Positions 26,176 through 31,576 of a stretch of 64,000 nucleotides of DNA are shown here, one piece after another. Each line of letters opens with the position of its first letter. Position 1 is the stretch's first letter. Origin of the DNA: Allorhizocola rhizosphaerae (lineage in GTDB: Bacteria; Actinomycetota; Actinomycetes; Mycobacteriales; Micromonosporaceae); contig NZ_QJUG01000002.1 in the NCBI RefSeq assembly GCF_003426775.1, positions 1 to 64,000 of the forward strand, in the 5' to 3' direction. The notes below the pieces were generated by a model. That model was not told the origin of the DNA. It ran no database searches and saw only the letters and a program-made list of their open reading frames with translations. Position numbers and translations under genes: made by a program.

Positions 26176-26562
26176 ATGCCATTTTTGGGTACCCGGACAA
26201 CCTCGGCCGCGTTGGCCGCGTCGCTCGGCGCTCCAGCTGGAGGCCGGCAACACGGCATGGTTGGAGCTCGCGCGATGCCAACAAACCGACTGCTCCCGTA
26301 TATCGTCCAATTTGCTCAGTCAGGCCCGCTCGCACGCGTTCCCGCCGTACAACTCCCAAGCGGAGCGGCTGCAGTCGCGCTCCCGCTGGACCTTCATGGC
26401 GCTGAGCCGCAACGGCGACACGCCGGGGCGCAGGCCGGCTGGCGATGTTGGCATCGTGGCCGTCCTGCTCCGTTCCCGCCGAGGTCAGCGCGGTGGAGGA
26501 TTTGGCCGGGCGGTCCGGGCCTCGCGCCGAGCGGGTCTGGGCCGCATCCGGATGACCTATAG
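26176..26562 (+). pseudogene. Possible frameshifted small gene
   Basis: ATG 26176 follows an excellent ribosome binding site (GGGGGAGGAAACCC), and the first ~20 codons have coding-like third positions (MPFLGTRTTSAALAASLG). From about 26236 the coding signal moves to the +1 frame, which reads LEAGNTAWLELARCQQTDCS and RSRWTFMALSRNGD with strongly GC-rich third positions. A single frameshift near 26230 would join the two. I do not recognise the protein. It may be a broken gene, a sequencing error or chance; the rest of 26112-26597 shows nothing else. Confidence 0.3.
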
Positions 26563-26597
26563 TGGATCTCCGTTTCGCGTGCGAATGGAGGTCTGCG

Positions 26598-27224
26598 ATG
26601 AGAAACCGGCGAGTCAATCTGCTCGACATCGGGCTCGACACGTCGTTCGACGCCTCCATGACGTTTGTGCAGTCGACACTGCAGAACATCAACGCGGGCT
26701 GGGATGCGCCCATTGTGGACATCGACTTCGTCCGGTCGCGGGACCTCGGCACGGTGCTCGCCGCCTTCACCGCCAAGTGCGACGTGCTGCATGTCATGGC
26801 CCACGGGGATCACAGCGAGACACCCACGTTCAGCAGTAGCGACGGGACCACCGTGGTGTCGATGGAGAAGCTCGGCCTGCTCGCCGCCGATCAGGGCAAG
26901 GGCATCCGGACCGGCGCCGTGCTCGCTGATGGGTGCAAGACCGGCACGGGCGCGTGGCAGACCGCCGTGCGGGACTGCCTGCACGACAACGTGACCTATA
27001 TCGGCACCTCGGCGCAGGTGGGCTGGCACGAGGGCACGGTCTTCTGTTCCGCCTTCTATGGCGCGCTGTTTCGCAACAAGGGCAAGGGGATGCCGGCCGC
27101 CGAACAGGCCGAGGACGCGGCATATCGGGCCATCCGCGCGTATATGGAGATCACCGGCAAGCCATGTCCGTACAAGGTGAAAATCCTCAAACCAAGCAGC
27201 TGGGCACGCCGGGCGTTTTCCTGA
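26598..27224 (+). CDS. Stand-alone CHAT/caspase-like protein
   Basis: 208 residues after a strong GGAGG site. A strand-helix pattern with VLHVMAHGD (His69) and VLADGCKTG (Cys113) matches the His-Gly and Cys of the caspase/CHAT protease dyad, and TYIGTSAQVGWHEGTVFCSAFYGALF resembles the following CHAT segment. CHAT domains are cysteine peptidases usually fused to TPR or NACHT modules in bacterial immune and death systems. Here the domain is alone, without signal peptide or membrane segment. The two motifs and their order are seen; protease activity is inferred. Confidence 0.55.
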   Translation: MRNRRVNLLDIGLDTSFDASMTFVQSTLQNINAGWDAPIVDIDFVRSRDLGTVLAAFTAKCDVLHVMAHGDHSETPTFSSSDGTTVVSMEKLGLLAADQGKGIRTGAVLADGCKTGTGAWQTAVRDCLHDNVTYIGTSAQVGWHEGTVFCSAFYGALFRNKGKGMPAAEQAEDAAYRAIRAYMEITGKPCPYKVKILKPSSWARRAFS

Positions 27225-27372: not shown

Positions 27373-28704
27373 ATGCGGATATCCCGCCTTGTTGCCCTGT
27401 TCGGGTGCGCGATCGTCACCACGGCAGCGTGCTCGGCGCAGCCCGACGACCCGCCGGAGCGCCCCTATCCCGGCGCGTTCATCTACGGTTCCGACGGAAA
27501 CGTGCAGAACGGATTCGGCGCCCAGTTCAAGGACCACCCCGGCATGCTGCACGGCATGAAGGGCACGGCCCCGGCCGTCCGGCTCGACGCGGGCTTCCGC
27601 AATCGCCTGACCGCGATGGACTCGGGCCTCAACGACACGCTGTTCGCGGGCGAGACCTACGACGCGGTCGTCATCGTGAGCATCGCCGCGCAGCTGGCCG
27701 GCTCGACCGACCCGAAAGCGATCGCCAAGCAGATCAGCGGGGTGACGGTCGGGGCCAACGTGTGCACCACGGTCGCCGACTGCCTCGCGCACGCGCGGGC
27801 CGGGCGCGACCCCGCCTATCGAGGCGCCACGCTGCGGCACGGCTTCACGCCCGCGGGTGAGCCGTCCACGGCCAGCTACGGGATCTATCACTTCGGCTCG
27901 GACAACCGGCTCGACGACGGCAAGACGGAGTATCTCAACACGGGCAACGAAAGCGCGGCGACGAACGAGCAGCCGCCGGCCCCGGTCGTGGCCGGCGGGC
28001 GCGAACGCGGGCAGCAGCTCGTGCTCGGTGGGCTGCTTCCGGTCGAGGGCGGGCTGTCGTTCGCGTACCCGCCGATGATCGCTGGGGCGAGGCTGGCCCT
28101 CAAGGAGGTCAACGAGGCGGGCGGGGTGCTGGGCCAGCCGGTGCAGTGGCGCGACGGCAACGATTTCACCGATCCCGCGAAGGCGCTTGCCACCGTGCAA
28201 AAACACAAGTCCGACGGAGTGCACGTCATCATCGGCGCGGGCGCGTCGGGCGTGAGCCTGGCCGTGCTGCCGGAGGTGGTCAAGGCAGGCATGATCCTGT
28301 TCTCCTCGTCGAACACCGCCGCCGCACTGAGCACTGTGGACGATGCGGGGCTGTACTTCCGCAGCGCGCCTTCGGACATCCTGCAGGCCCGTGCGCTCGC
28401 CGACGTGATGCTGCGCGACGGCCTGCGGCGGATCTGCATCGTCGCGCGGGGCGATGCGTACGGCGAGGGCCTGATGAAGGACGTGCAGAAGGAGCTCGTC
28501 GCGGCCGGGGTGTCCGAAGGCGACATCCGGACGTTCAAATATGAGGTGGGCGAGAACGGCATGCTTGCGACGCCCGGCCAGGTCGAAGGCGTGATCGGGC
28601 AGATCGCCGATTGGCGGCCGGACGGGGTACTGGTGATCGGGTTCGAAGAGTCGGCCGAGGTGATCAAAGGTATGGCGAAGACCGGCCTCAAGTTCCGCCG
28701 CTAG
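27373..28704 (+). CDS. Solute-binding lipoprotein with permuted lobes (LivK-type)
   Basis: 443 residues with a lipoprotein signal (VTTAAC, Cys20). Both lobes of a branched-chain-amino-acid-type binding protein are present in reversed order. Residues ~32-190 (FIYGSDGNVQNGFG; FAGETYDAVVIVSIAA; CTTVADCLAHARAGRDPAY; PSTASYGIYHFGSDN) correspond to the C-terminal lobe. Residues ~215-443 (LVLGGLLPVEGGLSFAYPP; IIGAGASGVSLAVLPEV; GLYFRSAPSDILQARALAD; VLVIGFEESAEVIKGM) correspond to the N-terminal lobe. An Ala/Pro-rich linker (~191-212) joins them. It may still fold as a circular permutant. No permease or ATPase genes are adjacent. Confidence 0.8.
   Translation: MRISRLVALFGCAIVTTAACSAQPDDPPERPYPGAFIYGSDGNVQNGFGAQFKDHPGMLHGMKGTAPAVRLDAGFRNRLTAMDSGLNDTLFAGETYDAVVIVSIAAQLAGSTDPKAIAKQISGVTVGANVCTTVADCLAHARAGRDPAYRGATLRHGFTPAGEPSTASYGIYHFGSDNRLDDGKTEYLNTGNESAATNEQPPAPVVAGGRERGQQLVLGGLLPVEGGLSFAYPPMIAGARLALKEVNEAGGVLGQPVQWRDGNDFTDPAKALATVQKHKSDGVHVIIGAGASGVSLAVLPEVVKAGMILFSSSNTAAALSTVDDAGLYFRSAPSDILQARALADVMLRDGLRRICIVARGDAYGEGLMKDVQKELVAAGVSEGDIRTFKYEVGENGMLATPGQVEGVIGQIADWRPDGVLVIGFEESAEVIKGMAKTGLKFRR
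28661..28700 (+). repeat. Imperfect 40-bp direct repeat, copy 1 (gene 3' end)
   Basis: The last codons of the permuted binding-protein gene, encoding VIKGMAKTGLKFRR. The sequence recurs at 28911-28950 with 37 of 40 bases identical, exactly 250 bases downstream. Confidence 0.85.
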
Positions 28705-29145
28705 CCGTTGCCTGTCACGTGGTCAACAGCAGCACGACAAATTCCCGCACCGACTGTCGATGCCGCGGATCGCCGCGCGGTGCGGGCTCGGTTGCGCCCG
28801 GACCCTCCGCTCGGCGTTCACCCGCAGATATGGCATCACGCCGTCGCATTGTCGAGCGGTCCACCGGCGAAGCGCCGCCCGAGCCCACGGGTGTGAAACC
28901 GCGGCCAGGGTGCTCAAAGGTATGGCGAAGACTGGCCTCAAGTCCCGCCGGCAGCCACCCGACGGTCCGGTCAGGAGCCGCCGCATGGCCGTTGACCAGG
29001 GAATCGACCGGATGAAACGCTGATCGGGCCGGGTTCGCTGGCCGCGCGTGGACATGGATCGCCTCTGGCCGGGCCGATTCCGACCCCTCGCCCGCGGGCC
29101 CGGCGCAACCTCACCCCGTGATCAGTTGGCGTGTAGACATCGGCC
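28705..29145. other. Non-coding stretch with duplicated gene end
   Basis: About 440 bases without a convincing gene. It contains the second copy of the binding-protein gene end (28911-28950, encoding VLKGMAKTGLKSRR), followed by an open frame to 29023 that resembles nothing known. This looks like debris from the tandem duplication that probably produced the permuted gene. Confidence 0.5.
28911..28950 (+). repeat. Imperfect 40-bp direct repeat, copy 2
   Basis: Copy of 28661-28700 with three mismatches, in a region lacking the rest of the gene. It marks a past tandem duplication. Confidence 0.85.
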
Positions 29146-29931: not shown

Positions 29932-30540
29932 TCAGTAGTTGTCGTTGAGGTGGTCGCGGTCGTGCGTGGAATACGCGAGCGCCGGTTTGGGATAGCCCTG
30001 CTGCATGCACGAGGTGCTCGATGTCCTGTGCGCGAGCCCGAGGGTGTGTCCGAGTTCGTGGCAGGCCAAGCCCCGCCGGTTGGCCGTCGTCGTGCCGGCC
30101 GTGAAGTTGATGTTGTATCGGACCGTGTGCCGCTCACACTCGTTGGCGGAGTTGTCGTCGTCGCAGGAGGCGAGGCCGACGACGCCACTGTTGCCGGGCG
30201 TCATCCAGTCGTGGCCGCAATAGTCGTCGTAACGCTGGTCGCGGACCACCACATCGGTGAGGTCGTCCAAAGTGGAATCGTAGACCGTGTTGACGGCGGT
30301 CGGGTTCAGGATGTTCGCACGGGCCCAGGTCGTGGCATTCTCGTTGTGCTCGGCCAGATCCACGTAATGAAAGGTGTGCGTGGCGTTGTCGGCCTCGTTC
30401 AGACCCCCGTCGCAGCCGGTGCTTCCCGTCGCGCCCGAGTAGTTGTCGGCGTGTGCCGGCCAGGCCGGTGACAATGCGGTGCAGGCGAGAGCAGCGGTCA
30501 TGACCACCGCCAGCCGTCTGGGTGCGGGTATGAATTTCAT
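29932..30540 (-). CDS. Secreted metzincin-type zinc metalloprotease
   Basis: 202 residues with a signal peptide (1-~31, ending AHA). The zinc site HELGHTLGLAH and the following SCMQQG, a candidate Met-turn, identify the metzincin clan. The short catalytic domain resembles actinobacterial matrixin-like or snapalysin-like proteases. Several Cys pairs (GCDGG, YCGHDW, SCDDD, ECERH) could form disulfides, as expected outside the cell. No propeptide is evident. It is followed by the exported protein gene at 29186. Confidence 0.85.
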   Translation of the reverse strand: MKFIPAPRRLAVVMTAALACTALSPAWPAHADNYSGATGSTGCDGGLNEADNATHTFHYVDLAEHNENATTWARANILNPTAVNTVYDSTLDDLTDVVVRDQRYDDYCGHDWMTPGNSGVVGLASCDDDNSANECERHTVRYNINFTAGTTTANRRGLACHELGHTLGLAHRTSSTSCMQQGYPKPALAYSTHDRDHLNDNY

Positions 30541-30619
30541 GCAGCCATCATGATCGCGTGGATATGCGCCGGGCATGCAGATGAATTGAATCTCCTGGTC
30601 AACGCGCCTTTGGCGGACC

Positions 30620-31576
30620 CTAGTCGTGCTGCTGCGGGGCCGGGATGGGCTTGCCGGTGTCGGCCCAGACGTTGCCCGAGTTCTGTGCGAGCACGGTCTT
30701 GGTGCTGATGAGGATCGGGCAGTTGAAGAAGGACTTGCGGCCGAACCGGTTGCCGATGACACGATTGCCGGTCAGGGGCCGGCCGTCACGGTGGGCGAAG
30801 TTGAGCGTGCAGCCGCCGCCGTCGAGCCAGTTGTCCTCGACGAGCGAGTCGCTGGCCGAGGTCTGCCAGGCGGCGTTGGCCCGCTTGTCTGACGACAGGT
30901 CAATATTGTTGTGCCGCAACGTGATCCCGCTGTCGCCCTCGAAGGACTGCACCCCGTCGTTGTGCGTCGGGCCGCCGCCCTGGTTGGGGTCGGAGGCGAA
31001 CCACTTCATGTCGTGGATGTAGGAGTCCTGAATGAGCACATTGGACTCCGCCTTCACCCCATCGACCACACCGTGGATGTTGACCCTATACATCTTCGTG
31101 TTGCGCGCCCACACGCCGTCGATGCCCGCCGACGGGCTCGCGGCGACGAACTCGGAGTCCTCGACCACCGTGTTGGTGCTCTTGCGCGTGTCCAGCAGGG
31201 ACGCGTTGTTGGACGTGGCCCGCCCGCGGAAGACGCATTTGCGGAACGTCACGTTGGCCGCCGTCACCTTGACGAACCCGCGGAACTCCTTGCCGGTGAT
31301 GACCTGCCCGGGCGTGGAGAACGTCTGGTCGCCCGTCACGACGGTCAGCTCCGTGCCGGCCGGCACGCCCGTGTTGTCGGCCATGGGTTTGCCGCCGCGC
31401 GGCCGCGCGGGCGACGAGGGAGAAGGCGATGGGGCGGGCGCCTGGGTCGCGGAAAGCAGCGTAGGCTCGGGCGAAGCGCTTGCCGAGGGGGAGGGCAGGA
31501 CGAGGGTGGGCTCCGGCGAGGAGGAGCACCCCGCCACGGCGAGGGACAGGGCGAGCACCATCACCACCGAGCGCAC
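30620..31576 (-). CDS. Lipoprotein with right-handed beta-helix domain
   Basis: 318 residues. The lipobox is LAVAGC, followed by a long Ser/Pro-rich spacer (~20-65) and a parallel beta-helix domain of pectate-lyase-like repeats (FRGFVKVTAANVTFRKCVF; TNTVVEDSEF; SNVLIQDSYIHD; SGITLRHNNIDL). GGGPTHNDGVQ resembles the polysaccharide-binding or catalytic turn of such proteins. It probably binds or cuts an extracellular polysaccharide. The start is GTG 31576, with TAGCGT ending 6 nt upstream on the minus strand, overlapping the divergent lhgO promoter. Confidence 0.75.
   Translation of the reverse strand: MRSVVMVLALSLAVAGCSSSPEPTLVLPSPSASASPEPTLLSATQAPAPSPSPSSPARPRGGKPMADNTGVPAGTELTVVTGDQTFSTPGQVITGKEFRGFVKVTAANVTFRKCVFRGRATSNNASLLDTRKSTNTVVEDSEFVAASPSAGIDGVWARNTKMYRVNIHGVVDGVKAESNVLIQDSYIHDMKWFASDPNQGGGPTHNDGVQSFEGDSGITLRHNNIDLSSDKRANAAWQTSASDSLVEDNWLDGGGCTLNFAHRDGRPLTGNRVIGNRFGRKSFFNCPILISTKTVLAQNSGNVWADTGKPIPAPQQHD

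Follow-up and report, generated by a model that had tools for sequence, protein, structure and literature searches.

The window, a stretch of 64,000 nucleotides of Allorhizocola rhizosphaerae DNA, carries on its forward strand a gene for a circularly permuted solute-binding lipoprotein (27373..28704; ATG start, 443 amino acids and stop). The encoded chain opens with a signal peptide and lipobox (27373..27432), in which the lipobox-like motif TAAC marks Cys20 as the lipidated residue; this cysteine is invariant across 19 aligned permuted relatives, and its presence after the signal peptide is what is expected of the lipoprotein partner of an ABC importer. A short flexible tether (residues 21-33; 27433..27471) leads into segment 1 (residues 34-190; 27472..27942), which corresponds to the C-terminal ~40% of an ordinary LivK-type chain and contains the rest of the C-lobe, the second N-lobe part and the last C-lobe strand, including D41 and the conserved Cys131 and Cys137. 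An Ala/Pro-rich linker (residues 191-213; 27943..28011) then connects the native C-terminus to the native N-terminus, and segment 2 (residues 214-443; 28012..28701), which equals the N-terminal ~60% of such a protein and holds S292, T315 and Y363, completes the chain. Further downstream on the same strand, a 69 bp partial copy of the 3' end of the gene (28638-28706) lies at 28888..28956 with 81% identity; judged by its sequence, this copy of the last 23 codons, 250 bp downstream of the gene, is likely the remnant of a second copy. Immediately upstream and on the same strand, a 220-residue open reading frame (26562-27221) is without a match in Pfam or any meaningful one in NCBIfam, and on the reverse strand (29932-30762) a secreted-looking protein matches matrixin (Peptidase_M10). 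No transporter genes lie beside the permuted gene.

As encoded, the protein is matched by Pfam Peripla_BP_6 only over residues 218-441, corresponding to profile positions 4-217 of 343. Its 100.3 bits pass the curated cut-off of 31.7 for membership of the family and it fails a whole-domain collinear match; the permutation explains why automatic annotation covers only about half of the protein. Once the segments are put back in their usual order, the Peripla_BP_6 match spans residues 5-331 (profile 4-320) and the ANF_receptor match grows from 6-147 to 6-298. Since re-ordering raises the Pfam score only slightly (from 100.3 to 105.4 bits), more weight is carried by a family-specific profile built only from 64 collinear, that is, normally ordered, relatives. 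With this profile, residues 37-181 correspond to positions 225-367 (E 2.8e-38) and residues 215-440 to positions 2-219 (E 1.2e-62), and the same swapped two-domain pattern, with complementary breakpoints and no part missing, was found in all 61 of 61 permuted proteins. A chance match of segment 1 was ruled out, as 500 shuffles of residues 21-213 gave at most 3.4 bits compared to 134.5 bits for the real sequence. Likewise, an ordinary relative (L073) used as query aligned its residues 51-217 to window bases 28015-28512 and its residues 275-413 to bases 27484-27909, i.e., in swapped order (both in the 40-42% identity range). In the PDB, whose best matches to the protein are amino-acid binders, only residues 215-421 align, namely to N-terminal portions of leucine-binding and related proteins, and NCBIfam yielded weak partial matches only. 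The original prediction of a natural circular permutant is thus borne out by two partial matches in swapped order without a collinear match of the whole protein, and the motifs it quoted are found in the places it gave. That the gene is a genuine circular permutant of a LivK/Peripla_BP_6 lipoprotein is confirmed.

Permuted proteins are widespread in the Micromonosporaceae, the family of the window organism (our family code f1), where 232 of the 301 sampled genomes contain a match at E <= 1e-40. According to a count made from the match listing by E-value level, about 189 of the 301 lie below 1e-150, the level of full-length permuted proteins, and the other 43 at about 1e-43 to 1e-71, where collinear relatives score; a full-length permuted match occurs in most genera of the family. 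Beyond it, permuted proteins were observed in f16 and f13 of the same order, in f39, f49 and f41 of the same class, and in f68, f81 and f122 outside the class within the same phylum. At nearly all of these latter loci the gene lies in or beside livHMGF, usually in convergent orientation to livF and close to polA, and occupies the exact place of the normal binding protein in collinear relatives; both forms even occur within a single genus code (g103 of f41). No liv genes adjoin the permuted gene in a few second copies of f16, nor in any of the Micromonosporaceae permuted loci examined. Two cut types, 21 profile positions apart, can be distinguished: type A, which includes the window protein, ends at profile position ~220, while type B (f68, f81 and f122; loci L125-L130), which comprises at least two separate lineages, ends at ~241-243, so that it retains VYGCDGNMGNALG.. 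at the C-terminus and begins, at the N-terminus, with LEGMKGT.

The permuted chain had originally been described as having its two lobes in reversed order. The swapped order holds, whereas a lobe-by-lobe exchange does not: alignment to the leucine-binding protein 2lbp places the join between GLKFRR and GAFIYGSDG at approximately residues 219-222, and the simple lobe swap was accordingly corrected to a rotation with its cut, at about residue 220, inside the C-lobe. This cut separates the helix that closes with GLKFRR from the strand FIYGSDGN, a position that corresponds in the leucine-binding fold to a C-lobe loop linking a helix with the strand after it; because it lies inside the C-lobe, each segment contributes to both lobes. 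Ser79, Thr102 and Glu226 of leucine-binding protein, which bind the carboxylate and amine of the ligand, align with S292, T315 and D41 of the window protein, an assignment made at low identity. The equivalents of these three residues are invariant in all 126 proteins compared (54 type A, six type B and 66 collinear), the Glu226 position being Asp throughout. As D41 derives from segment 1 and S292 and T315 from segment 2, a working pocket requires both halves to fold together, and the ligand is most likely amino-acid-like, an inference made without ligand data. An AlphaFold model computed from only two sequences (the window protein and that of Catelliglobosispora) reached a pLDDT of 37.6, too low to show the expected closed two-lobe fold, which remains inferred. 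The chain would begin at the lipidated Cys and enter the C-lobe at the strand with the amine-binding acidic residue D41, reach the native C-terminus, continue by way of the Ala/Pro-rich linker into the native N-terminus, and finish inside the C-lobe after GLKFRR. The expected product is the usual two-lobe clamp with a pocket built from both halves and a membrane tether on the C-lobe rather than the N-lobe; the shift of the lipid anchor from one lobe to the other is likewise an inference.

The number of origins was addressed with a tree of 80 proteins, all put in common order, on which well-supported branches force every one of the five changes needed between the permuted and collinear states. 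The AU test rejects a grouping of all permuted proteins in one clade (p 1.35e-53), and with it a single origin. Also rejected are one origin of type B (p 0.0015), a grouping of the f41 protein from G460 with f39/f49 (p 0.0053) and a union of the type B proteins of f81/f122 with the f1/f16/f13 clade to the exclusion of collinear f8 (p 0.0047). The p-values near 0.005 call for caution, as the groups were partly named after inspection of the tree; the value of 1.35e-53 is beyond such doubt. A single f1, f16 and f13 clade with collinear f8 outside is not rejected (p 0.41), and the best tree places two collinear f8 rows inside it, so that one reversal or an extra event is still possible. A tree of the neighbouring LivF, which serves as an independent control, is in agreement: G460 groups with collinear f41 genomes, f68 with the collinear locus L144, and g146 of f49 with collinear f49. 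Because LivF follows the local collinear relatives in this way, the permutations took place in situ at the locus. On the evidence of these sequence trees, four to five permutation events, and at least four, are indicated.

How each event proceeded can only be inferred. In a general model, permutations arise when a gene is duplicated, the copies fuse and the outer parts are lost (PMC3320104), and the original prediction had invoked tandem duplication followed by outer loss. Support for this path is indirect only: tandem collinear copies occur elsewhere, signal peptides were retained (permuted and collinear members of the same family share 18 of 24 signal-peptide residues in f49 and 17 of 24 in f81, by our own count), and the linkers look like a native tail joined to a native flank. 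The linker start resembles the end of collinear proteins (ITGQI in G460 as compared to ISGNI-stop and IAGEI-stop in collinear f41) and the linker end their flexible start (KPGDGVLTVG as compared to AKGDGTFTVG). Read in this way, the linker would consist of the native C-tail followed by the native N-flank, in line with what permutation by duplication predicts. The source would be the substrate-binding component of the polA-livHMGF transporter of actinobacteria; most simply, the mature part of this protein would have been duplicated in place and the copies fused, with the first and last stretches then lost and the signal peptide kept in position. No fused two-copy intermediate gene was found in the loci examined. 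A gene that was split and whose halves were re-fused in the other order, without any duplication, would yield the same end product, and fission and fusion is likewise a described general model (PMC3320104). However, separate half-genes were not found at the loci examined, whereas two full collinear binding-protein genes stand in tandem at four polA-liv loci (L099, L100, L107 and L108), which leaves fission and fusion an outside chance beside duplication.

Repeated origin also has to be weighed against one ancient permutation that spread by vertical descent and horizontal transfer and acquired its cut types by later trimming of overlapping ends. The cut sites are indeed only 21 profile positions apart, and type B of f81/f122 falls with type A of f1/f16/f13 in one supported group together with the two collinear f8 rows; nevertheless, the AU tests reject the all-permuted clade and several partial unions, and both the LivF beside each permuted gene and the signal peptides match local collinear relatives, so that we consider such a history unlikely. 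Far less still can be said for the idea that faulty assembly or gene calling exchanged two segments of an ordinary gene, even though the draft assembly of the window genome comprises 493 contigs. A second permuted copy lies on an independent contig of the same genome (G000:C227:3111-4442; 49% identity over residues 1-442), the same full-length order recurs in Catelliglobosispora koreensis (67% identity) and on single-contig chromosomes (G001, G003 and G010), and the gene is a single open frame throughout; the conservation of the permuted order across independent assemblies refutes this explanation. In the window's family, the missing transporter and a long stem branch (0.69) in the tree would also fit a permuted gene that has stopped encoding a functional binding protein and is decaying as a pseudogene-like relic. 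This is very improbable, however, given that about 189 of the 301 genomes conserve an open frame and that the lipobox Cys, the pocket residues and the two cysteines are invariant. The best overall explanation, in which we place considerable confidence, remains a circular permutant of repeated, in-place origin that has become an orphan in the Micromonosporaceae.

The closest precedent is TpMglB-2 (Tp0684) of Treponema pallidum, likewise a naturally permuted type I substrate-binding lipoprotein and classified as a "type Ic / cluster Bc" ligand-binding protein (PMC4990184). Its crystal structure demonstrated that it keeps the two-lobe fold and ligand binding. A fourth link between the lobes is needed in this protein too, and its authors likewise suggested a tie to membrane tethering (PMC4990184). 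The window protein has the circularly permuted type I chain that defines type Ic, and its linker would provide the same fourth inter-lobe connection if the inferred fold is correct. The two differ in that TpMglB-2 is cut in the N-lobe between strands 3 and 4, with the first three strands moved to the end (PMC4990184), as opposed to a cut in the C-lobe. Moreover, TpMglB-2 belongs to the glucose-binding MglB branch and its permuted part is too diverged for sequence homology, whereas the window protein belongs to the LivK branch with clear homology of both parts, and its group offers two alternative cut sites, collinear orthologues at the same locus and several origins. No report of permuted LivK-type proteins was found in the literature searched, outside of which most subscription journals lay; the reported case of OpuAC could not be confirmed there. 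With LivK/LivJ-type leucine and branched-chain binders (Peripla_BP_6, PF13458; E. coli 1usg/2liv), the window protein shares the family and the positions matching Ser79, Thr102 and Glu226, yet its segments are rotated, its lipid tether would sit on the C-lobe and transporter genes are not alongside. The collinear binding protein of the actinobacterial polA-livHMGF locus (L073, L101) is an orthologue with the same locus, signal-peptide style and two conserved cysteines, but has the normal order and, in Micromonosporaceae genomes, accompanies an intact transporter. For saposin/swaposin and DNA methyltransferases, the permutation-by-duplication model applies to different folds (PMC3320104). Most natural circular permutations on record are isolated pairs that are old and difficult to date; in the present case, the same swap apparently occurred at least four separate times in actinobacteria, usually at one transporter locus, leaving an unusually good natural record of protein re-ordering. 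With normal and permuted orthologues at one locus, two cut sites and several origins, it becomes possible to test directly the duplication model, how cut sites are chosen and what follows when the membrane anchor changes lobes. If true, the repetition would mean that the permutation was selected rather than merely tolerated. The proteins also represent ready-made permuted scaffolds for amino-acid biosensors.

What the orphan does in the Micromonosporaceae is inferred from its surroundings. The cognate permease and ATPase genes expected for the lipoprotein partner of an ABC importer are lacking beside the window gene, and the best LivM of its genome is only 33% identical. LivM reaches 32-40% at best in Micromonosporaceae genomes with the permuted form only, compared to 50-60% or better for the LivM partners in genomes of the family with the collinear form and in one f16 genome (G039). 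As no LivM in the genomes with only the permuted form comes near true-partner identity, the permuted protein of this family has lost its own transporter; the gene would have been separated from it and kept as an orphan lipoprotein, and the broad conservation of the orphan gene argues for a function. A role as a sensing or shared-binding lipoprotein for an amino-acid-like ligand has about even chances, in the absence of ligand or expression data, the main alternative inferred being that it loads another Liv-type importer. The joint reading, in which the permuted form lost its coupling to transport and is now a widely kept stand-alone amino-acid receptor, falls somewhat short of an even chance and is put forward tentatively. 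Two neighbours, both absent beside the window copy and without a Pfam match where tested, often lie near the permuted gene in most genomes of the family (L082:7974-8642, L085:10861-11328 and other loci), namely an acidic DxDGDGxxD-repeat protein and a small conserved protein of ~136 amino acids.
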